Virus record (IMG/VR): IMGVR_UViG_3300005935_000184
Location: 1 to 21,016 of that record
Length of the DNA: 21,016 nucleotides
Origin: a virus
Direction: 5' to 3' (one strand)
Shown: positions 4,575-20,871 of the stretch, in pieces
How positions within the stretch are numbered: position 1 is the stretch's first letter
How the letters are laid out: every line of letters begins with the position of its first letter
Translations under genes and position numbers: made by a program
The notes under the pieces: model-generated
Databases searched by the model: none
What the model saw: only the letters and a program-made list of their open reading frames with translations
Told to the model about the DNA's origin: nothing

Positions 4575-4604
4575 AAAAAGGGAAGTTAATTACTTCCCTT
4601 TTTC
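4575..4604. terminator. Bidirectional terminator between converging genes
   Basis: The perfect 11-bp stem AAAAAGGGAAG/CTTCCCTTTTT (4575-4585 with 4593-4603) has a 7-base loop and T-runs on both strands. It begins at the base after the rightward stop codon. The leftward gene's TAA (4586-4588) lies in the loop, so one hairpin serves both genes. Confidence 0.88.
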
Positions 4605-5032
4605 TTTTGTATGTCTTTTTCGAGTTCATCTATATCCAAGTAATCAATTAAATTTATTCTGAATTCTTTATCCAAATAATAATGTAATTCTAATAATGAT
4701 TTATCTTGTCTGTTTTTATGTTCATTTTTTAATCCACTAATTGTATCAATTAATTGTTTTTTATTAGGAAATAATAAAGGTAAATCTAATTTTAGGAATC
4801 TAATAGAACCATTATACCCAAGTATAGAACGGTTGTCGAGGTAATTTTTAATTTCTTCTAAACTATATAATTCTTCGGGATTATTTATTATTTTTTTATT
4901 CAACATATCTTTAATAAACATTATCATATTAAACCCATCTTTTCCTTCCTTGGTTTTTTTAATTTCTTCTAATGATTTAGGTGTCATTTTATCTTTAATA
5001 GATTCTGAAACAAATTGATTATATTTTTTCAT
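4586..5032 (-). CDS. Hypothetical protein with capsid-targeting-like N-terminal tag
   Basis: The 148-residue protein has no fold I recognise after residue ~30; it looks helical and charged, ending KKKGSN. Its N-terminus, MKKYNQFVSE|S, aligns with the T4 internal-protein capsid-targeting sequence MKTYQEFIAE|A: Met-Lys, Tyr4, Phe7 and Glu10 are the same. Glu10 follows hydrophobic-x, which fits a T4 gp21-type prohead-protease site. The next stretch, SIKDKMTPKSLEEI, recurs almost unchanged at the start of two other proteins in this window. Inferred role: an internal head protein or one packaged for delivery. The ATG is preceded by AT-rich sequence without a Shine-Dalgarno. Confidence 0.75.
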   Translation of the reverse strand: MKKYNQFVSESIKDKMTPKSLEEIKKTKEGKDGFNMIMFIKDMLNKKIINNPEELYSLEEIKNYLDNRSILGYNGSIRFLKLDLPLLFPNKKQLIDTISGLKNEHKNRQDKSLLELHYYLDKEFRINLIDYLDIDELEKDIQKKKGSN

Positions 5033-5112
5033 ATTATTATATATTAAAATAGAAAAATACCATAAAATGATATTAAATATATAATCTTATGATATGTAAC
5101 ATAATGAAATTT

Positions 5113-5157
5113 CCCGTAACAAATGATATTTAAACATCAGTTTGTTGCGGGTTTTTT
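5113..5157 (+). terminator. Intrinsic terminator upstream of phoH with no obvious gene feeding it
   Basis: CCCGTAACAAA (5113-5123) pairs with TTTGTTGCGGG (5141-5151) with one G-U pair. An inner TGAT/ATCA stem continues the hairpin, and GTTTTTT follows. It points rightward, yet no rightward gene lies between the previous terminator (4575-4604) and here. It may end readthrough, end a short untranslated RNA begun near the TATAAT-like sequence at ~5080, or act as a leader attenuator for phoH, whose ATG is 31 bases downstream. Confidence 0.75.
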
Positions 5158-5175
5158 ATTTTAAAAATTAATCAC

Positions 5176-5182
5176 AAAGGAG
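5176..5182 (+). promoter_or_regulatory. Strong Shine-Dalgarno of the phoH-like gene
   Basis: AAAGGAG sits 5 bases before the ATG at 5188. It fixes this start, and stands out because most other genes here have A-rich leaders with no Shine-Dalgarno. Confidence 0.8.
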
Positions 5183-5187
5183 AATAT

Positions 5188-5943
5188 ATGGCTAAAACTA
5201 ATGGTAGAAAGAACGGGAGTAACGGAAGTTCCAATAACGGAACAATAGATTTATTACCAAACGAAAACATTAATAATATAAAAGAATATTCTAGTATTTA
5301 TGGAAGAAGGGTTAGAATTAAGTGTAAAAATGAAGAACAAAAAGAATTTATAAATCTTATAAATGATAATGAAATTGTATTATGTAATGGTCCAGCTGGG
5401 TGTGGGAAAACATATTTATCAATTTTAAAATCAATAGAATATTTACAACAAAATAATAACGGGTATAATAAAATATTTATAATAACACCTAATGTTGAAA
5501 TTTCAAGATCACTAGGTTTTTTACCAGGTTCGTTTAGTGATAAAATTTCTGTATATATGAATAGTATATTTAGATTATTTGATAAAGTTATCACAGAAAA
5601 AACAAGAAAAAAATTAGTTGAAGAAAATATAATAGAAACATTAGGTTTAAGTTACATAAGAGGTGAAAATTTTGATAATTGTATTTTAATTGTTGATGAA
5701 GCACAAAATGTCACAAAAAAAGAAATGTTAACAATATTAACAAGAATTGGTAGTAATTGTAAAATGATATTATCTGGTGATATAATACAAATTGATAAAC
5801 TAAATTCAAGAAACGAAAGTGGATTATACTATGCTATGGAAAAATTAAAAGATATAAAAGATATAGGTCTATTTACATTTTCTAATGATAGTATAGTTAG
5901 AAATGATATTATTAGAAAAATACTTGATAAATATGTAGAATGA
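5188..5943 (+). CDS. phoH: PhoH-like ATPase
   Basis: The 251-residue protein has a low-complexity Asn/Gly/Lys N-terminus (1-30). It is followed by a PhoH core: Walker A GPAGCGKT at 68-75, TPNVEISRSLGFLPG at ~100-114 (the family's conserved segment after the second strand, usually RPxxxxGexlGFLPG), Walker B ILIVDEAQN at 166-174, and the SGD motif at 196-198. PhoH proteins are P-loop NTPases common in phages. Links to RNA metabolism are proposed but the exact role is unsettled. Length and motif order are normal for a phage PhoH. It is preceded by a terminator and a strong Shine-Dalgarno, so it appears to be expressed separately. A homing endonuclease gene follows 45 bases later. Confidence 0.9.
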   Translation: MAKTNGRKNGSNGSSNNGTIDLLPNENINNIKEYSSIYGRRVRIKCKNEEQKEFINLINDNEIVLCNGPAGCGKTYLSILKSIEYLQQNNNGYNKIFIITPNVEISRSLGFLPGSFSDKISVYMNSIFRLFDKVITEKTRKKLVEENIIETLGLSYIRGENFDNCILIVDEAQNVTKKEMLTILTRIGSNCKMILSGDIIQIDKLNSRNESGLYYAMEKLKDIKDIGLFTFSNDSIVRNDIIRKILDKYVE

Positions 5944-5988
5944 TTAGGGTATTTATTTTTAATATATAAGATAAATTATATTAATGTA

Positions 5989-6999
5989 ATGTATAAGAAA
6001 TGGACAAGGGATGAAGAACAAATTTTATTTGATTTATATTCAAATAAATATAACGAAGATATATCAAAAATATTAAATAAATCAATATCATCAATAGAAA
6101 ATAAATCTCATAAAATGGGGTTATTAAAATCAAAAGAATTTAAATCTCGATACATGACAATAAAGAATAAAGAATCGGGTCGGGATTTAAATTATGAAAA
6201 ATTAAAAAATATTGCCAAAAATTATAAGTCAAGGGGAGAATTTCAACGAGAAGATTCGAGTGCATATTCTACTGCAAGTAGACAAGAAATCTTAGATGAT
6301 ATATGTTCACATATGATAAAATTGTCATATAGTATACCACAATTGATTTTATTTGAATTATGTAAAAAATTCATAGGTGGAAATATTAAATATAATGATA
6401 GAAAAACAATAAAACCATACGAATTAGATATTTTTATACCTAAATATAATTTAGCGTTTGAATATGATGGAAAAGGATGGCACCAAAATAATGATAACGA
6501 TGAAATAAAAAACAATAAATGTAAAAAAGATAATATTACATTAATTAGATTTATTGAAAATAATAGAAGATATGAAGATGATATTAAAAATCAGTTTATT
6601 AAAAATTTACCAATTTTAAATAAAATAACGAATCTAAACATTATAGAGAAAGATATTTTATCATATGTAAATATTAATTATAGTGATGGTATATTAGATG
6701 AACAATCTATAAAAAAAATTATAAAAAAATATAACTATTATAAAGATTTTAGAGAAAATGAAATGAATTTATATCAAAAATTAATTAAAATGAATAAATT
6801 AGATGAATATACAAAAGATTTAGTAAAATCAAGAATAAATTGGAATCAACAGAAAATAGATTTAGAAATATCTAAATATATATGGTTATTTGATTTTATA
6901 GAAAAATCAAATGGTTGTTATATTTATATAAAAAGAAATAATTTAAGTTATAAAATAGAACATCTGAAAAGAAAAAGGATAAAAAAGAAAGGGAAGTAA
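5989..6999 (+). CDS. Freestanding homing endonuclease, Vsr-like/EDxHD type, with Myb/SANT-like N-terminus
   Basis: The 336-residue protein starts with a Myb/SANT-like DNA-binding helix-turn-helix (residues ~5-45, with WTRDEEQILFDLY and IENKSHKMGL). A middle segment around 72-112 has the 'RGEF....AY..A.R...LD.I..HM' pattern found in such nucleases. The catalytic core has YELDIFIPKYNLAFEYDGKGWH at ~144-165. D147, E158, D160 and H165 match the metal-binding residues of the Vsr-like EDxHD fold (I-Bth0305I type). The C-terminal third is Lys/Asn-rich and probably binds DNA. Composition is even more AT-rich than the phoH gene beside it, fitting a mobile gene. It probably cleaves an intron-less or homing-endonuclease-less allele nearby. 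Its stop codon lies inside the following terminator. Confidence 0.82.
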   Translation: MYKKWTRDEEQILFDLYSNKYNEDISKILNKSISSIENKSHKMGLLKSKEFKSRYMTIKNKESGRDLNYEKLKNIAKNYKSRGEFQREDSSAYSTASRQEILDDICSHMIKLSYSIPQLILFELCKKFIGGNIKYNDRKTIKPYELDIFIPKYNLAFEYDGKGWHQNNDNDEIKNNKCKKDNITLIRFIENNRRYEDDIKNQFIKNLPILNKITNLNIIEKDILSYVNINYSDGILDEQSIKKIIKKYNYYKDFRENEMNLYQKLIKMNKLDEYTKDLVKSRINWNQQKIDLEISKYIWLFDFIEKSNGCYIYIKRNNLSYKIEHLKRKRIKKKGK

Positions 7000-7012
7000 A
7001 TCTTCCCTTTTT
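6988..7012. terminator. Bidirectional terminator between converging genes
   Basis: AAAGGGAAG (6988-6996) pairs with CTTCCCTTT (7002-7010) around a 5-base loop, with A/T runs on both sides. The rightward stop (6997-6999) is in the loop and the leftward ankyrin gene ends at 7017. The core stem matches the one at 4575-4604. Confidence 0.85.
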
Positions 7013-7016
7013 CATT

Positions 7017-8048
7017 TTATAAATATTTTTTAATTTTATTAATCTTCTTTTGGTATTCAACTATTTCGTTATTAAGATTATCTTTCATTTCAGGATTTTG
7101 TTTAATTAGAAATGTTATTATTTCATCGTTTTGATCTTTTTGAATCCATTCATTTATTTTCCTATTAAAAAACCCATATTGGTCAAAATCCACTTTAGAT
7201 CCGTGACTTTGTAATAACTTTACTATTTCAACTCTATTGTTATTTATAGCAACACCTATTGATTTAGAATGTGATGTATTATCAATTGGGTATCCATTAT
7301 CTATTAGAAATTTAACTATATCGTAATAATTATTTCTAATTGTATCGTGTAAATAATTTGAATATTTAGGATTTATATCTGCACCTTTTTCGAAAGCAGT
7401 TCTAACAAGATTAATATTTCCAGTTTCACAACCAATTTTCATCATTTTATTGTAGTCTTTATTATCTGATGATATGCCTAATTCTTTATCATATAATAAT
7501 TTTTCTATTTCTTTTCTTTTGTCATTTAATATTTTTTTCGATATATAATCTCTTTTAATATATTGACGAGCATAAGATACATCTTTAATTCTTATTTTTT
7601 CATAATCTAAGATACATTTTACCATATCAACATTTTCTCTGTTTGCTGCTGTTATCAAATATTTATCCATTCTTAATGCTACACCTTTGTATTTTTCTAT
7701 ACCATCTTTAACGGCACTAAGAATATCTAAATCGACACCTTGTTTTATTTTTTGATAAGGGGGTAATTCATTAAAATATTTTTTTATTTCTTCATCACTT
7801 GGTAAAAATTTATCATCTAATTCTAATCCATTGACAGCTTTAATCCATCTACCTAAATTCAACCCAGAAAAAAGAACTTTGATTTCATCATCACTCGGTA
7901 AAAAACTATCATCCAATTTTAATGATCTTACTTTATAAATCCATTTATCAATATCCAATTTGGATAAATTTCTTTTAATTTCTTTATCTGATTTAGATGT
8001 CATCTTATCTCTTAAAGATTCGTTATATGTACTGAATTTTTTAATCAT
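7017..8048 (-). CDS. Ankyrin-repeat protein with capsid-targeting-like tag and three short repeats
   Basis: I choose the ATG at 8046-8048 (343 residues). A TTG at 8067-8069 would add seven residues, but it abuts the late-promoter box and would leave no leader. The N-terminus MIKKFSTYNE|S resembles the T4 capsid-targeting tag and is followed by LRDKMTSKSDKEI. Next come three ~32-residue repeats with the pattern 'PSDeEIK....L.....WI..V..L.LDD.FL' at about 18-110. The rest is ankyrin-like: ITAANRENVDMVKCILDY, then IGCETGNINLVRTAFEKGADI, HDTIRNNYYDIVKFLIDNGY and VAINNNRVEIVKLLQSHGSKV. Ankyrin repeats bind other proteins. If the tag works as in T4, this protein would sit in the head and might act early in the host. 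The partner is unknown. Confidence 0.8.
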   Translation of the reverse strand: MIKKFSTYNESLRDKMTSKSDKEIKRNLSKLDIDKWIYKVRSLKLDDSFLPSDDEIKVLFSGLNLGRWIKAVNGLELDDKFLPSDEEIKKYFNELPPYQKIKQGVDLDILSAVKDGIEKYKGVALRMDKYLITAANRENVDMVKCILDYEKIRIKDVSYARQYIKRDYISKKILNDKRKEIEKLLYDKELGISSDNKDYNKMMKIGCETGNINLVRTAFEKGADINPKYSNYLHDTIRNNYYDIVKFLIDNGYPIDNTSHSKSIGVAINNNRVEIVKLLQSHGSKVDFDQYGFFNRKINEWIQKDQNDEIITFLIKQNPEMKDNLNNEIVEYQKKINKIKKYL

Positions 8049-8069
8049 TATTAAGTTGTAGTTTTTCAA

Positions 8070-8077
8070 TATTTATA
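8070..8077 (-). promoter_or_regulatory. Late-promoter-like box for the ankyrin gene
   Basis: TATTTATA on the + strand reads TATAAATA leftward, the T4 late consensus, 21 bases before the ATG at 8048. It is one half of a 16-bp perfect palindrome with the box for the opposite gene. Confidence 0.6.
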
Positions 8078-8085
8078 TATAAATA
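8078..8085 (+). promoter_or_regulatory. Late-promoter-like box for the CCA-enzyme gene
   Basis: TATAAATA rightward, 19 bases before the ATG at 8105, immediately abutting the leftward box. T4 late promoters use this sequence with phage sigma gp55. Such an 8-mer is expected several times by chance in DNA this AT-rich, so the position and symmetry carry the argument. Confidence 0.6.
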
Positions 8086-8104
8086 AAATTATAATAGTTT
8101 TGCA

Positions 8105-9700
8105 ATGAAATTATACAAATATACCGACTTTTTCAATGAATCACTTAGGGATAAGATGATACCTAAATCAGATGAAGAAATCAGAGAAAAAATTAAAAAA
8201 ATATTTAACACAGATAAAGATGTAATATCTATAAAATTACATAATCCACATGGTTATAAATTGGTTGGTATGAATTCTGGTATAGAAGAAGAAAATTATA
8301 GGGTTAATTACCATAAATTAACAGGTGATATTGTTGTGATTTATAATTATTTAATGGATTATTTAGATAAATCTCCAGGTGATCCAATTGGGTATATTGG
8401 TGAATTTTTAATAGATGATAAACCACTTACATATAAAAAACGAGAAAAAGTAAGGAATTTTGAAAATTTTAGCTTATCTTTACCTATTGAAATTAATAAT
8501 AACAATATGGAGAACATAAACGAAAGAATAAATGCTAAAATGGATATCCCACAAGATATCATGGATTTCCAAAAATTGTTTACCGCAAAAGGTCATAGAC
8601 TATACATTGTCGGTGGTGCTGTAAGAGATTTTCTTATGAATAAAAAACCACATGATTTTGATATGGCTACTGATACTACACCTCAAAGAGTAATGGATAT
8701 TCTTAAAGATTATAGGACAGATTTACAAGGTGTACATTTTGGCGTTGTTAGGGTATTTACAGAAGCTGAACCAGAAGGATACGAAATTGCATCTTATAGA
8801 AAAGATATTGCTAAAGGTAGAGATAACAAAGGTAATAATCAGAAAGTTGAAATTGGATCTCATATTACAATCAAAGATGATGTAAAAAGAAGGGATTTAA
8901 CTATGAACGCTTTATTCTATGATATTAGGACAGGTCAAATTGTTGATGTTGTTGGTGGAATAAAAGATATTAATGATAAAATTGTAAGAGCTGTTGGAAA
9001 CCCAAGAACAAGGTTTGATGAAGATAGACTTAGAATTCTTAGAGCAATTAGATTTGCTGCTGTTACTCATAGTAAACTTGAAAGAAAAACTGCAACCGCA
9101 ATCAAGAACGATAGTAGATTGTTTAATATATCTGATGTTGATGATGTATCAAGGGAAAGGATTTTTCTTGAATTTAAAAAGGTTAAAGAAAAAGCAAGAA
9201 AGAATGATGATCCTATGATGATCAAAAACTTCGTTGATATGTTAATACAATATGATATAATGGAACAAATCTTTCCTGTTATCACAAAAGATAAATCAAT
9301 TAAACCTACAACATATTTAACTGTAGCTATTGCTCAAGTATTGAGGGAAAATGATGTTACACCTGAATTTAAAAGAATTCTTATTGATGCTAAAATACCA
9401 ACAGATTTTGTAGAAATTATATCAATTCTTGTTGAATTATATAGAAACGGTGTTGCACCAGAAAATGCTTATGAAACATGGAAAACTATACGAAATAAAG
9501 GTCTTAGATTGGATATCTTACAAGAGTGGATAGATGTTATGGGTATAACTAATAAGTCTGTTCTTGCTATGTTAAAATATGTACCAACTACATCCAGTAA
9601 GGATATAATGGACGCAGGTTTCACAGGTGCAGGTATCGGTAATGAAATCAGAAAAAGGGAAGCCGAAAAATTCAATAAATTAGTAACAGAAACTAATTAA
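8105..9700 (+). CDS. cca: CCA-adding enzyme / tRNA nucleotidyltransferase with tagged N-terminal extension
   Basis: The enzyme core starts near residue 150 of 531. It has IVGGAVRDFLM (168-178), the metal-binding DFD (D184, D186) in KPHDFDMATDT, YRKD, RRDLTMNAL (262-270), and DEDRLRILRAIRFA (305-318). These are the class II CCA-enzyme/poly(A) polymerase motifs; CCA enzymes rebuild the 3' CCA end of tRNAs. The C-terminal helical part binds the tRNA body and ends at 9700. The first ~135 residues are foreign to the family. They start MKLYKYTDFFNE|SLRDKMIPKSDEEI, the tag shared with two other proteins here, and are followed by a ~100-residue domain I do not know. An internal ATG at 8507 could give the plain enzyme, but no Shine-Dalgarno precedes it. 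Codon use looks more AT-biased in the extension than in the core. CCA versus poly(A) addition cannot be separated by eye. Confidence 0.88.
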   Translation: MKLYKYTDFFNESLRDKMIPKSDEEIREKIKKIFNTDKDVISIKLHNPHGYKLVGMNSGIEEENYRVNYHKLTGDIVVIYNYLMDYLDKSPGDPIGYIGEFLIDDKPLTYKKREKVRNFENFSLSLPIEINNNNMENINERINAKMDIPQDIMDFQKLFTAKGHRLYIVGGAVRDFLMNKKPHDFDMATDTTPQRVMDILKDYRTDLQGVHFGVVRVFTEAEPEGYEIASYRKDIAKGRDNKGNNQKVEIGSHITIKDDVKRRDLTMNALFYDIRTGQIVDVVGGIKDINDKIVRAVGNPRTRFDEDRLRILRAIRFAAVTHSKLERKTATAIKNDSRLFNISDVDDVSRERIFLEFKKVKEKARKNDDPMMIKNFVDMLIQYDIMEQIFPVITKDKSIKPTTYLTVAIAQVLRENDVTPEFKRILIDAKIPTDFVEIISILVELYRNGVAPENAYETWKTIRNKGLRLDILQEWIDVMGITNKSVLAMLKYVPTTSSKDIMDAGFTGAGIGNEIRKREAEKFNKLVTETN

Positions 9701-13721: not shown

Positions 13722-14342
13722 TTAGTTAAAAATAGTTTTGAGATATTCTAATTTTTTAGAATACTTTTTCTTCTCTTTCTTGTGTAATTTCTGTGCGTAC
13801 TTGGTATAAAAACTTACATTATTTATAAAATTGGTTTGATCCTCTAACGCTTGTTTTATTGTAATTCCACGTTCCATTGACAATCCATTGATAGCATAAA
13901 GAAACCAATCAACATCAAATGCCTGAATCATATCACAATCCATTAATATTTTTTGAATATCATTTTCTGGTTCTTTTGTTTTAGGAAATTCAGTATAGGT
14001 TATTAATTCTTGAATACTGATAAAATGAATACCATCAAATGACATCTTATTCAATTCATAAAATTTAATAAATTCTTGAACTGCGATTTGAATATTTTCA
14101 TTATCTTTTAATTTCCCACCACTATGATTAAAGTCGTGAAATAATGCAGCAACTCCTAATACAATTAAATCATGTTCGGGTAATTTATATCCTTTAGCAA
14201 TTTCCATACAAGAATCAAACACCTTTACTAAGTGTCTTGTATTATGATAAGGTAGATTAACTGATTCGTTGTGTTCAATAATATAAGAAAACGCTTTCTC
14301 TAATAGTGGATGACGTTTAATTTTCTTTAAATAATGTGACAT
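13722..14342 (-). CDS. HD-domain phosphohydrolase, PDEase-like
   Basis: The 206-residue protein has YHNTRH (32-37), ALFHDFNHSGG (66-76) and a later DCD (135-137). These are the metal ligands of the HD fold: H in YHNxxH, HD, H in NH, and the C-terminal Asp. The spacing and the wording YHN..RH......AAL.HD..H closely follow the cyclic-nucleotide phosphodiesterase (PDEase_I) subset rather than generic HD nucleotidases. All putative ligands are present. The substrate is unknown; cyclic or linear nucleotides are the family's usual choice. It overlaps the upstream zinc-ribbon gene by 26 bases and lies 5 bases before the Rossmann-like gene, so it is firmly in the leftward series. Confidence 0.8.
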   Translation of the reverse strand: MSHYLKKIKRHPLLEKAFSYIIEHNESVNLPYHNTRHLVKVFDSCMEIAKGYKLPEHDLIVLGVAALFHDFNHSGGKLKDNENIQIAVQEFIKFYELNKMSFDGIHFISIQELITYTEFPKTKEPENDIQKILMDCDMIQAFDVDWFLYAINGLSMERGITIKQALEDQTNFINNVSFYTKYAQKLHKKEKKKYSKKLEYLKTIFN

Positions 14343-15812: not shown

Positions 15813-16544
15813 TTATTTGAGTATTTGTTTAATTTTTCTTTGTCTATCAAGTGCAACAGAATACATATTATATTCTTTTTCCATTTTTTTAAGACCTTCA
15901 CTAATATCTGTTGTTCTTTTAGATATATTAAATCCTGTTCCTAATGCACCACCTTTCCAAGAACCTCTACCTGATCCAACTTCTTCACTAAAATCAACAT
16001 TAACAGTACGACTGATTTTAGAACTCATTTTAGTCCATTTAAACCACTTTCTACGCCACTCCCTCTCCGTTATATGACACTTAACATTAATGTCTATATC
16101 ACCTTCATTTGATGTCTTGTGTTTATATGGGATAGTGACTTGCCATTGTTTATCAGTCCATTCTTTGTTATAAAATTCTTTTCTATGACCTTTGGTTTCA
16201 TGTGCCCATGTTCCATCAGATAATAATAAACTTGATCTTATCCATTCATAAGATAAAAAAGGTAAATCATAAACTTTACATTTACGATTCCAATAAAACA
16301 TAAAAGAATTATTATGATAAGTTATACCATAAGATGGATCATCATGACCATAATCTTTTTTTATTTTATGTTTCCAAGGAAATGTTATAAAAAATTGACC
16401 AAAGAATAGTTGCCAAATTAGTTGAGGATAATCATAATCATTATACCCTATTGTTAGATATTTGATTGTGAAACCCCAATTAAGATAAATTTCTACTTTG
16501 AAATTATTTCGTTTACCTATTCTTATTACTTTAGATTCTTTCAT
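15813..16544 (-). CDS. Hypothetical Trp/Tyr-rich phage protein
   Basis: The 243-residue protein has many aromatic residues, with LPFLSYEWIRSS, WQVTIPYKHK, and EREWRRKWFKWTKMSSK near the end. A Gly-rich stretch around 190-205 is followed by a charged helix. It has the look of an extended beta-rich protein that ends in a helix, and I cannot name a family. It is the first gene after a terminator, so it begins a new leftward transcript. Confidence 0.65.
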   Translation of the reverse strand: MKESKVIRIGKRNNFKVEIYLNWGFTIKYLTIGYNDYDYPQLIWQLFFGQFFITFPWKHKIKKDYGHDDPSYGITYHNNSFMFYWNRKCKVYDLPFLSYEWIRSSLLLSDGTWAHETKGHRKEFYNKEWTDKQWQVTIPYKHKTSNEGDIDINVKCHITEREWRRKWFKWTKMSSKISRTVNVDFSEEVGSGRGSWKGGALGTGFNISKRTTDISEGLKKMEKEYNMYSVALDRQRKIKQILK

Positions 16545-16957: not shown

Positions 16958-18061
16958 TTATTTTTTCTTTTTAGGAAAATATTTCTTTCTTATATACCCA
17001 TAAATAGGTATTAATAATGCAGTGAATAACCAATACCATCTTTTAGCAGCACTGTCTATAAAATTATTAAATCCTTCTTTGAAGTTATTTTCAACAATTA
17101 AAACACTATCTCTTAAAATCAAATCTTCATAATCACCTACTATTTTAATAACATATGGTAATGTTTTTTCTTTACCCTTTGGTGTAACTACCCATTTGTA
17201 ATTAAATTGTGATTTATTATCATTTATAATATTATCATCTGTTATGATAGTAACTTTACCATCAAATTCTAATACTATTTTACCTTCTCCACCCCATTCA
17301 ATACTATAAGTATCAAATTTTTTTTCTATTAAATTTAATCTAATTATACTATCTTCATATCTTTTTAAATTATCAGGAATATCAATTATCATTGAATATT
17401 TTTTCTTTGGCTTATTTGTTACATTAATTTCTGTATCAAATATTATTTTATCCCTAGTTGGACCATCTTGTTTTATTTTCGCAGTCAATATTAAATTATA
17501 ACTACCAATTTTATTTGCAGTAACACCCCATAACCAAAGTGTTGGATCTGTTTCGTCTACTAATTGTTCATCATCTGTAATTTCAGTTATTGTGATTGCA
17601 TCTTCATCTAAGGTTTTTAATTCCATGTCCATTATATTTCCAACCTTTATAATTTCTTCATGTATAATACCTGTTGATGTTCGTGTCGTTAATGAAACTA
17701 ACTGTTCCGTTGTTTCTTCACTTACTTGTTTTATTATTCTTGCTTCTACCCTAGATACAACACCTATAATTAATACTGAATCTACTTTATAAACTAATGT
17801 TCCTTGATTACTTAATGGTGTGTCCATTAATAATTTATTTTCATCACGAACTACTTCTCCCATTTCAATACCATGACTTATTTCTTCTAAATCAATTTCT
17901 TGGAAATCTATAACACCATCACCATCAACATCAGGAATATAAACACCATCAATCATTACTGTATCTGGGAAATATACCCATTTAATCTCTTCTTGTTTAT
18001 TTATTCTACTATTACAACTAAATAAAATAAAGATAGATAATATATAAATTATTCTTTTCAT
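16958..18061 (-). CDS. Phage lipoprotein with C-terminal membrane helix (possible unimolecular spanin)
   Basis: The 367-residue protein begins with a lipoprotein signal: basic MKR, hydrophobic IIYILSIFILF, then LFSC with Cys16 as the lipid-attachment residue. An EF-hand-like loop, DVDGDGVIDFQE at 44-55, has Asp or Glu at positions 1, 3, 5, 9 and 12. The middle is beta-rich, with several Ig-like strands. The end has a 16-residue hydrophobic segment (342-357, WYWLFTALLIPIYGYI) and a Lys-rich tail. A lipid anchor at one end and an inner-membrane helix at the other is the topology of unimolecular spanins such as T1 gp11, which join and disrupt the two membranes at lysis. It is much longer than gp11 (131 residues). 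A surface exclusion lipoprotein is another option. Confidence 0.7.
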   Translation of the reverse strand: MKRIIYILSIFILFSCNSRINKQEEIKWVYFPDTVMIDGVYIPDVDGDGVIDFQEIDLEEISHGIEMGEVVRDENKLLMDTPLSNQGTLVYKVDSVLIIGVVSRVEARIIKQVSEETTEQLVSLTTRTSTGIIHEEIIKVGNIMDMELKTLDEDAITITEITDDEQLVDETDPTLWLWGVTANKIGSYNLILTAKIKQDGPTRDKIIFDTEINVTNKPKKKYSMIIDIPDNLKRYEDSIIRLNLIEKKFDTYSIEWGGEGKIVLEFDGKVTIITDDNIINDNKSQFNYKWVVTPKGKEKTLPYVIKIVGDYEDLILRDSVLIVENNFKEGFNNFIDSAAKRWYWLFTALLIPIYGYIRKKYFPKKKK

Positions 18062-18081: not shown

Positions 18082-18107
18082 AAAAGGATGTATTTCTACA
18101 TCCTTTT
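18082..18107 (-). terminator. Intrinsic terminator of rtcB with GNRA-type loop
   Basis: On the leftward strand, AAAAGGATGTA-GAAA-TACATCCTTTT forms an 11-bp stem with a GAAA tetraloop, followed by TTGTTTT. The rtcB stop TAG (18096-18098) is inside the hairpin, spanning stem and loop. The arm is the same as at 16557-16582. Confidence 0.88.
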
Positions 18108-19487
18108 CATATTCTTGTAAGACTTATCTCTACGTTCTCTTTTACGGTCTTGGTCTTTCTTCTTCTTATTCTTTCTTTCTTTCCAAGACATACCTTCTGA
18201 CTTATCTTTGATATTCATAACTGGTGTTATTCTATCAACAACCGTAGCAGTATCTTGTATTAAACTTTCTATTAGTTTAGAAGATTTATAAGATTGTGGA
18301 CTTTCATCAAGTGTGTTTTTAGTAACTGATGTTGTAACAATACCTTTCATTGATTTTTTATATTCATTATAATCTACTGTTACTTTAGCTTTACTACGAG
18401 AAAATAATCGACCAGCTCCATGAGGACTGGAAAAATTCCAATCTGAATTAGATTTTCCTTCACATAATAAAATCCCATCTCTCATATTAAAAGGTAAAAG
18501 AAATTTTTGTTCCTTATATGATTTTACTGCACCTTTACGTATAATCATATCATATGGATCAATATAATTATGAATAGTAGATACTATTTCATCATACTTA
18601 TCAATATTTAATTTTTCTTTAATAATATCTAACATAGTTAGACGATTAACATAAGCATAATATTGGGTGAAAATCATATCGAAAATATATCCAATAAGAT
18701 TATCATCAGATAAATATCCTTTAGCAATTCCTACTTTATGTTTTTCTTTTAATTCTTTAATTCTTTTAGGAATTTCTGATTTGATTTTAGTATTTTGAAT
18801 AATATTATCTAAATCATTAGTGTATTCTTTAGAAACAACTTTAACTTTTCCAATAGCAATATTATTCCAATAATCAAAAATTTTAATTCCTAAATTTCTT
18901 GATCCAGAATGAACTGTAATCCAATAATCTCCTTCTAAATTTTTTCCAACTTCGATAAAATGATTTGAACCCCCCATAGTTCCTATGGAATTCCAAAATT
19001 TAGAAGCATCCATTTTAATATCTTTTAATTTATCGGTAAGCCACTTATCATTATAAGTAGGAGCATCATAAGAAGTTCCAAATTTTTCATTGAAATTTAC
19101 AATGAAAGAATTAGCAATTTTTTGAATTTCTTCAAAATCTATTTTATTTACAATAGGTGATGGATGTAAATTAAATCCTGTTGGAACTGATTGTCTTATT
19201 TGTGTTTCTAATTTTTCTAAATTAATAGAGTTTTTCTTATCGAATTTAACACCCAAAAGACCACACCCAATATCACAACCCACCAATCCGACATCTAAAA
19301 ATTTACCTAATTCCATCGAGAATCCTACGCAGACCCCCGAGCCAACATGTGCATCAGGCATTATCCTGACTTTCAACCCATTAGATATTTGTGAATTGAT
19401 TATACCATAAACTTGTTGAAACACACCTTCTTCGATATTATCAATGAAGATTTTAGCATCTGTATATTTTCCTTTTAATTCTAACAT
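18096..19487 (-). CDS. rtcB: RtcB-type RNA ligase
   Basis: The 463-residue protein is a full RtcB, which joins RNA 2',3'-cyclic phosphate or 3'-phosphate ends to 5'-OH ends using GTP and Mn. The conserved motifs are in order: PDAHVGSGVCVG (44-55), VGCDIGCG (69-76, with the metal-binding Cys75), GGSNHFIEV (172-180, His176), VHSGSRNLG (192-200, His193), HNYI (306-309), and SPHGAGR (354-360), whose His356 accepts GMP. The C-terminal ~35 residues are strongly basic. In phages, such ligases reseal tRNAs cut by host anticodon nucleases. A late-promoter-like box lies 15 bases before the ATG and a hairpin terminator overlaps the stop, so it may be a single-gene unit. Confidence 0.95.
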   Translation of the reverse strand: MLELKGKYTDAKIFIDNIEEGVFQQVYGIINSQISNGLKVRIMPDAHVGSGVCVGFSMELGKFLDVGLVGCDIGCGLLGVKFDKKNSINLEKLETQIRQSVPTGFNLHPSPIVNKIDFEEIQKIANSFIVNFNEKFGTSYDAPTYNDKWLTDKLKDIKMDASKFWNSIGTMGGSNHFIEVGKNLEGDYWITVHSGSRNLGIKIFDYWNNIAIGKVKVVSKEYTNDLDNIIQNTKIKSEIPKRIKELKEKHKVGIAKGYLSDDNLIGYIFDMIFTQYYAYVNRLTMLDIIKEKLNIDKYDEIVSTIHNYIDPYDMIIRKGAVKSYKEQKFLLPFNMRDGILLCEGKSNSDWNFSSPHGAGRLFSRSKAKVTVDYNEYKKSMKGIVTTSVTKNTLDESPQSYKSSKLIESLIQDTATVVDRITPVMNIKDKSEGMSWKERKNKKKKDQDRKRERRDKSYKNMKRM

Positions 19488-19971: not shown

Positions 19972-20871
19972 ATGTCAAAAAGAAAAACTAAAGAACAATT
20001 TATAATAGATTCAATAAGAAAACATGGTAATAAATATGATTATTCATTAGTTGAATATATTAATAATAGAACTACTATTATGATTATTTGTCCTATTCAT
20101 GGTGAATTTAAACAAACACCCAGTAATCATATTCAAGGTCGAGGATGTAAAAAATGTCATATATTGAATATTTTGATGTCAATTAATACATTTATTCAAA
20201 AATCTAATATAATTCATAATAACAAATATAATTATTCATTAGTTAAATTAGAAGGATTACAAAAGGAAATTAAAATTATTTGTCCTATTCACGGTGAATT
20301 TAAACAAAAACCTGAATATCATTTATATGGTCATGGTTGTCATTTATGTGGCGGTTCACAAAAGTTAACATTGAAACAATTTATTGAAAAATCTAAGAAA
20401 GTTCATGGAGATAAATATAATTATTCTTTGGTAGAATATAAAAATACACATACAGAAGTTAATATTATCTGTAAAATTCACGGTAAATTTAAACAAAAAG
20501 CAAGAGAACATTATGACGGGTGTGGTTGTCCTAAATGTAAAGAATCTAAAGGCGAAAGAAAAATAAGAAATTATTTAAAATTTAATAATATTGATTTCAA
20601 AAGTCAAAAAACATTTGAGGGGTGCAAATATAAAAATTTATTGAAATTTGATTTTTATTTACCAAAAGAAAATCTTTGTATTGAATATGATGGAGAACAC
20701 CATTTTATAATTAAAGAACATTGGGGTGGAATTAAAGAATTTAAGAATATTCAAAAAAGAGATAATATTAAAATCGAATATTGTAAAAACAATGTTATTA
20801 AATTGTTACGTATTAAATATACCGATAATATAGAAGAAAAATTAAATGATATTATTCAGATTAAATTCTAA
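19972..20871 (+). CDS. DUF723-repeat homing endonuclease, EDxHD nuclease
   Basis: The 299-residue protein has three DUF723 zinc-binding repeats at about 6-62, 72-126 and 136-189. Each has the pattern 'HG.KY.YSLV.Y......I.IIC.IHG.FKQ.P..H..G.GC..C', with two Cys pairs and an HG motif. A C-terminal EDxHD/Vsr-like nuclease follows: KFDFYLPKENLCIEYDGEHHF at 225-245, where D227, E238, D240 and H243 are the likely metal ligands, then RDNIK and LLRI. This is the I-Bth0305I-like type of freestanding homing endonuclease. The second repeat has the weakest match. It is tightly linked to the RHH gene upstream and its stop overlaps the end of the opposing gene. Confidence 0.88.
   Translation: MSKRKTKEQFIIDSIRKHGNKYDYSLVEYINNRTTIMIICPIHGEFKQTPSNHIQGRGCKKCHILNILMSINTFIQKSNIIHNNKYNYSLVKLEGLQKEIKIICPIHGEFKQKPEYHLYGHGCHLCGGSQKLTLKQFIEKSKKVHGDKYNYSLVEYKNTHTEVNIICKIHGKFKQKAREHYDGCGCPKCKESKGERKIRNYLKFNNIDFKSQKTFEGCKYKNLLKFDFYLPKENLCIEYDGEHHFIIKEHWGGIKEFKNIQKRDNIKIEYCKNNVIKLLRIKYTDNIEEKLNDIIQIKF

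Follow-up and report, generated by a model that had tools for sequence, protein, structure and literature searches.

Why would three unrelated viral proteins, encoded close together, begin with the same kind of N-terminal segment? We address this question for a 21-kb (21,016 nt) fragment, IMG/VR virus record IMGVR_UViG_3300005935_000184, hereafter the window. Three of its open reading frames (ORFs), 4586-5032 (-), 7017-8048 (-), and 8105-9700 (+), have in common an N-terminal segment of about 25 residues, which we call the tag. An earlier note on this DNA had likened the tag to the capsid-targeting sequence (CTS) of phage T4. Our analysis supports that reading on three grounds: (i) matches to the tag consensus fall only in T4-like phages; (ii) a related clade of huge phages encodes a protease, scaffold, and capsid protein with N-E sites; and (iii) the tag stands on many unrelated proteins. 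We consider it likely that the tag is a signal of the T4 type for capsid targeting and processing, to which a new extension has been added, a judgement that reads packaging and cleavage from sequence.

Three tagged proteins and their T4-like start

The tag has two parts. Module A comprises the first 9-12 residues, M-K-x-[YF]-x-x-[FY]-x-N-E↓, where the arrow marks the predicted cut, and retains the residues that T4 genetics ties to targeting and cleavage. Module B is the extension [LIV]RDxMxPKSxEEI after the cut site, and was found only in the tagged IMG/VR contigs described below. In the window the features are as follows.

4586..5032, minus strand: tagged protein 1, 148 aa, function unassigned
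5003..5032, minus strand: module A of protein 1, capsid-targeting-like propeptide MKKYNQFVSE, predicted cut after E10
4961..5002, minus strand: module B (extension) of protein 1, SIKDKMTPKSLEEI
7017..8048, minus strand: tagged protein 2, ankyrin-repeat, 343 aa (Pfam Ank_2, 8e-12)
8019..8048, minus strand: module A of protein 2, MIKKFSTYNE, predicted cut after E10
7977..8018, minus strand: module B of protein 2, SLRDKMTSKSDKEI; its second half opens the first confident helix of the solenoid
8105..8506, plus strand: tagged N-terminal module of protein 3, residues 1-134
8105..8140, plus strand: module A of protein 3, MKLYKYTDFFNE, predicted cut after E12
8141..8182, plus strand: module B of protein 3, SLRDKMIPKSDEEI
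8507..9700, plus strand: CCA-adding enzyme / poly(A) polymerase head-domain part of protein 3

The three starts, module A running directly into module B, are as the earlier note had described them, and so is the lack of kinship between the rest of the proteins, whose bodies gave no mutual alignment (best E 0.045). The tags themselves align pairwise with E values of 1e-4 to 8e-7. A loose version of the tag motif occurs three times in the window and in none of 200 simulated windows with matched dinucleotide make-up, a simulation that rules out a chance origin. At the codon level, the tags are also separated by synonymous changes, in 1, 3, and 4 codons for the three pairs, which speaks against a recent copy-paste event; simple duplication was rejected. 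A database artefact was ruled out by independent contigs, and one two-tag ORF (contig G006) recurs on G007, from a different sample. Tagged protein 1 has no match in Pfam or PHROGs; distant relatives with the same tag occur elsewhere (e.g., L034, 31% over 138 aa). The ankyrin protein has a tagged homolog in L011/L058 (33% over 346 aa), and a TTG upstream of its start, at 8069, is an alternative start codon (MKNYNLI-MIKKFSTYNES).

T4 genetics assigns residues 4 and 7 of the CTS to targeting, and residues 8 and 10 to processing (PMC9026906). Tag 1 of the window matches all of these (Y4, F7, a hydrophobic residue at 8, and E10). Tag 3 has aromatic residues for the targeting positions in Y4 and F9/F10, and those of tag 2, F5/Y8, correspond to positions 4 and 7 shifted by one. 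The third residue before the cut (P3) is hydrophobic in VSE↓S and aromatic in YNE↓S and FNE↓S.

Searching 50,697 phage records with the consensus tag returned 22 matches, 22 of 22 in T4-like phages, and the reversed tag, used as a control, returned zero. The match lies at residue 1 of a coding sequence at all four T4-like loci examined, which start MKTYQEFINES, MKSFNEFINES, MKTYQEFINES, and MKTYNEFLNES. Internal-head-protein genes are annotated nearby at three of these loci, in VR7 (ip6, ip9), ABTNLsp5, and 005; the locus in Serratia phage PS2 has no such annotation nearby. With the CTS of the T4 internal proteins IPI-IPIII and their T4-like relatives, the tag shares its N-terminal position, a length of about 10 residues, occurrence on otherwise unrelated proteins, the residue pattern (MKTYNQFINE here, MKTYQEFINE in VR7), and a cut that an S77-type protease is predicted to make after Glu. 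It differs in that P2 is nearly always N, that it is often shortened to 9 residues with an aromatic residue at P3, that a conserved RDxMxPKSxEEI then follows, that fused proteins carry internal copies of the cut site plus extension, and that the genomes counted below have about 40 or more tags above background.

Two separable modules on a variable set of proteins

We gathered tagged loci from three IMG/VR scans by tag alignment and then read the contigs in full. This yielded 53 tagged proteins on 19 contigs, or 52 non-redundant proteins, as one ORF is common to two samples. Stripped of their tags, the bodies (n = 71) form 34 similarity clusters, of which 24 are singletons; one cluster joins 24 of the 71. 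The tag is therefore a short N-terminal segment common to otherwise unrelated proteins, on the count of 52 proteins and 34 body clusters. Pfam recognized ankyrin repeats in 16 of the 52, the CCA/poly(A) head domain in 2, DUF7448 in 2, HD in 1, and AhpC/TSA in 1. On contigs of the same lineage (L009, L015, and L019), core genes are up to 93% identical to those of the window and the tagged genes in matching slots differ; judged by these alignments, the tagged genes are a variable cargo set in a conserved frame. Six matches to the tag pattern in bacterial and archaeal genomes were not confirmed.

The conserved part beyond the cut site, which the earlier note took for an extra with no T4 counterpart, is indeed that, and is a separate module which also occurs inside proteins. 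Module A is found without B on several of the same contigs (e.g., G002 at 17426, MIKRFSQFINES; G014 at 31684, MKYLKTFNES), and the joint between the two varies in length: NE↓S-L-R-D, NE↓G-S-I-R-D, NE↓E-L-N-V-R-E, and NE↓G-V-K-N-L-K-V-R-D. In N-terminal copies (n = 43) P1 is E in 43, P2 is N in 38, and P1' is S or G in 42; P3 is I or V in 18 and F or Y in 20 (Y 11, F 9), where the T4 site reads (L/I)-x-E↓. E-S plus module B also stands inside proteins, in up to 3 copies per ORF, and about 13-15 of the 52 tagged proteins have an internal copy. The internal copies (n = 19) keep E, S, and M in 19 of 19 and N in 14, and the upstream aromatic/K pattern is gone. Read against the T4 genetics, they have lost the targeting half (4, 7) and kept the Glu of the processing half (8, 10). 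One internal copy retains its own Met (G019, ...KMKTFEQFINEELNVRELM), as would be expected from a fusion of two tagged genes.

AlphaFold gave models of two tagged proteins. In the model of the ankyrin protein (mean pLDDT 84), residues 1-17 are disordered (pLDDT under 50) and the first confident helix follows PKS/SKS. For a triple-tag protein, whose model has a mean pLDDT of 62, residues 1-17 in the first tag are disordered, the internal copies lie in or beside low-confidence stretches, and the third tag ends such a stretch directly before a confident domain. A PDB search with the triple-tag model gave one match with E under 0.001 and an rmsd of 15, which was uninformative. From these models we have moderate confidence that module B is a joint between the cut site and the cargo domain.

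Head genes and bare tags in the Mahaphage clade

The closest complete genomes are Mahaphages of 634-735 kb (634, 636, 642, and 735 kb), with predicted hosts in the Bacteroidetes according to the parts of PMC7162821 covered here; those parts mention neither a targeting sequence nor a prohead protease. Homologous structural and core genes link the window to them. Its tail-tube-like protein is 47% identical to that of the 735-kb phage LR756501 and 35-37% to those of LR745206/LR756502, and its CCA enzyme is 39% identical to that of the 635-kb phage, with 35% also scored against the clade. On these identities the window phage looks like a distant member of the clade.

A T4-type signal calls for a protease and a scaffold, and the earlier note had proposed looking for a gp21-like protease. 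The clade has one: next to a gp23-like capsid gene, Mahaphages have a single ORF in which an S77-like protease (GEFDHP, SSRA) is fused to a scaffold. With T4 gp21/gp22/gp23 they share the protease with both motifs, the scaffold, the gp23-like capsid protein, presumed Glu-specific processing, and a Glu site before the mature capsid protein. The clade differs in encoding protease and scaffold in a single ORF, with [LIMV]NE↓S where the two meet, and in that its scaffold has about 7-13 tandem YSEY[IL]AE repeats, mostly at 14-residue spacing. Across 88 protease-scaffold ORFs in IMG/VR we counted 972 copies of YSEY[IL]AE, 795 of the spacings being 14 residues; the repeat unit can be written (YSEYIAENLDKNI)n. 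In LR745206 (198486-200669) and 88 relatives the tandem unit reads YSEY[IL]AE(N/H)LDKNI, near the T4 targeting core YQEFIAE.

The presumed capsid maturation site is [ILM]-N-E↓N in 57 distinct capsid proteins (N in 55 of 57), and the presumed protease-scaffold junction is [LIMV]-N-E↓S in 89 of 90 sequences and has A after the cut in the remaining one. Since capsid and junction sites have N-E in common, N-E marks both the tag and the clade's presumed head-protease sites, all of them predicted.

Module A alone also stands on proteins of the 635- and 735-kb phages, in starts such as MKYLKSFNES and MIKTFDEFINES. N-termini with [FYW]x0-2NE number 57 against 14.2 expected among 822 proteins of the 635-kb phage (p 3e-18), and 46 against 8.4 expected among 459 proteins in 54% of the 735-kb phage (p 3e-20). 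This is four- to fivefold above background, with about 40 excess proteins in each of the 635-kb and the partial 735-kb phage. The tagged proteins of the 635-kb phage that Pfam recognizes include a T4 Rnl1-type RNA ligase, NFACT-R, DHH, and CCA proteins. In LR745206, an NFACT-R protein with a tag-like start (202490-202897) directly follows the capsid gene; in LR756502, an NFACT-R protein (229226-229942) has a tag-like IIKFDKFNE↓GKKDKF internal to a fused ORF.

Exact and hidden Markov model (HMM) searches for the full tag gave no module B in the three huge phages whose CCA enzymes are closest to that of the window. Module B was likewise not found in the Mahaphages of PMC7162821, and none was seen within 10 kb of head genes. 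Conversely, gp23 and S77 models gave nothing over the cut-off on the tagged contigs. With a clade-specific protease profile, relatives came up on G017, and G019 gave a short match. Three module-B proteins are encoded on G017. Several kb away from the closest of them lie a relative of the clade protease (145 aa, 4e-16), in which the His motif is kept and SSRA is replaced, and a fragment of the clade capsid protein (2e-6). The protease that the note had proposed looking for is present in the clade, together with scaffold and capsid protein. Among tagged contigs G017 has a shortened relative without the serine motif, and in the window, a 21-kb fragment, the phage's own protease is out of view. 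In a separate observation, G017 (IMGVR_UViG_3300020048_000501) has, at 14.6-21.7 kb (L079, L080), about 15 consecutive small minus-strand ORFs with a common C-terminal motif like RREKLEKIxxKI, at least 2 of them relatives or fragments of the clade head protease and capsid protein. Could this motif be a tag on exapted head-gene fragments?

Proposed route into the head, cargo, and alternatives

We propose that the first 10-12 residues act as a T4-type capsid-targeting propeptide. This propeptide would imitate the Y-S-E-Y-[IL]-A-E repeat of the clade scaffold, and the tagged protein would therefore be built into the prohead scaffolding core. An S77-type prohead protease would cut after N-E (or S-E), freeing a mature protein that starts S-[LI]-[RK]-D-K-M into the head, from which it would be injected together with the DNA. 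RDxMxPKSxEEI would remain on the mature protein, where module B would link the cleavage site to the cargo domain through a flexible R-D-x-M followed by a helix-capping PKSxEE. Because module B would be self-contained, in-frame fusion of cargo genes would be possible, and fused cargo would need targeting only once, at its N-terminus, with a junction that can be cut ahead of every later domain. We observe the sequences, their modularity, conservation, and spread, and the clade's head genes with matching N-E sites, and infer from them core binding, cleavage, injection, and any cutting at internal copies; how proteins are localized in the core is still unresolved in T4 itself (PMC9958956). The ejection proteins of the giant phages SPN3US and phiKZ offer a parallel, as many head proteins with N-terminal propeptides cut by the prohead protease and injected. 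Their propeptides are mostly longer than 100 residues (PMC5694885), and they have no short shared tag of this kind.

As to cargo, the assignment of ankyrin proteins that the earlier note made is solid. That of the CCA enzyme is weaker, because N-E↓S is absent from its orthologs in the closest relatives; its packaging is plausible and less certain than that of the ankyrin proteins. The enzyme itself is well recognized (Pfam PolyA_pol 2e-32 at residues 166-295, nt 8600-8989; PHROG tRNA nucleotidyltransferase 7.5e-51). The tag belongs to a module, about 110-134 residues long, that is joined in frame to the enzyme; the enzyme proper starts at about residue 135 (nt 8507), and tagged relatives of this module are free-standing or lie inside multi-tag proteins (L042, L013, L019). 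CCA orthologs of the 635- and 642-kb phages have a bare tag-like start (MILKKYKMFLE↓S and MIITKYAKFLE↓S). We rejected the idea that the tag is a generic start of phage CCA enzymes, as those examined from other phages begin at or near the catalytic domain. Two further observations concern RNA repair and this gene. An RtcB RNA ligase is encoded at 18096-19487 (-) of the window (PF01139, 6e-47), making with the CCA enzyme two RNA-repair genes in 21 kb. On G013 (L061, 3640-4575), an insert of about 960 bp, probably a mobile intron, splits the CCA gene after GYEIASYRKDI; it contains an ORF that by eye resembles a GIY-YIG endonuclease.

Several points weigh against a packaging and cleavage signal. 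We found no virion proteomics for the clade. The T4-like matches are individually weak (E 1-9) and come from few families, so that argument rests on which phages matched and at which position. T4 has no conserved sequence beyond the cleavage point, whereas in the window, as on the other tagged contigs, the cut site is followed by module B. Aromatic P3 residues are frequent in N-terminal tags, compared with I/L/M/V at capsid and junction sites, and P1' is S/G in tags and N in the capsid protein. No intact protease was found on the tagged contigs, the G017 copy having no SSRA serine motif. In the two closest relatives the CCA enzyme has an ORF of its own, which begins MKKMQKYQNFNVSLQDY in G009 and MIKKFDDMIN in G004 and has no N-E↓S. 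Finally, 8 of the 19 internal copies have T at P3, so poor or no cutting there is possible.

We also weighed other explanations. The tag could be a docking motif for a replication compartment, a membrane, or a scaffold, with no cleavage and an incidental likeness to N-E↓S. The frequent aromatic P3, the fact that packaging is a prediction, and a module B with no T4 counterpart would suit docking. We nevertheless consider it unlikely, given the matches to starts of T4 internal proteins, the N-E common to tag, capsid, and protease-scaffold sites, and scaffold repeats that nearly equal the T4 targeting core. Common descent alone, with the tag as the conserved start of a recently expanded ankyrin-like family whose C-termini diverged or recombined, would give it no signal role. 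Ankyrin proteins do make up 16 of the 52 tagged proteins, and one cluster holds 24 of the 71 bodies. This explanation strikes us as very improbable: there are 34 clusters and 24 singletons, A and B occur apart with variable spacing, and in the 635-kb phage A stands on proteins with no kinship to ankyrin proteins (DHH, NFACT-R, RNA ligase, and CCA).

A narrower disagreement concerns the internal copies. Internal E↓S plus module B without the targeting half could possibly define cargo polyproteins. Alternatively, module A is a capsid-targeting propeptide and the internal copies stay uncut, as linkers left by fusion or as repeat caps, a view to which we give a real chance, though not an even one. 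It draws on the T at P3 in 8 of 19, unlike all 57 capsid and 90 junction sites, and on the PKSxEE half, which resembles a helix cap in the models and could alone be enough to conserve B. It does not explain why E and S are kept in 19 of 19 although the preceding residues drifted freely. Module B also tolerates other lead-ins (NE↓GSIRD, NE↓ELNVRELM, NE↓GVKNLKVRD), and therefore E-S is not demanded by B itself.

To return to the tag as a targeting and processing signal, relatives of the window phage, including the largest known phages, carry dozens of such labels, which suggests that they deliver a large protein kit with their DNA. A fuller version, which we offer tentatively and rate somewhat below an even chance, is that the largest phages load dozens of proteins (a CCA enzyme, a T4-Rnl1-type RNA ligase, and many ankyrin proteins) through a T4-type tag that copies the scaffold, and that in one lineage a second module allows polyproteins, targeted once and cut into separate effectors by the prohead protease. 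If our main reading of the tag is right, one short motif would be enough to predict which proteins the largest known phages, described only from metagenomes, package and inject, and a set of genes without assigned function would become candidate early-acting effectors that can be tested. The T4 targeting mechanism would extend to megaphages of Bacteroidota, the tandem scaffold repeat would hint that the tag acts by copying it, and polyprotein-like delivery of phage effectors would be suggested. A tagged CCA enzyme and a tagged RNA ligase would be in keeping with a pre-emptive repair of tRNAs that host defences cut. We found no literature report of such tags in Mahaphages, in a search that largely left aside subscription-only papers and preprints.

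The window has further genes of note. At 15813-16544 (-) it encodes a protein related to the CBASS inhibitor Acb3 (PF25187, E 6.5e-31), and near it, at 13722-14342, an HD/phosphodiesterase-like protein with a weak match (6e-4, below the cut-off). At 19972-20871 (+) the window encodes a repeat-rich DUF723 / treble-clef protein of a type that recurs many times on the tagged contigs and is probably a mobile endonuclease family.

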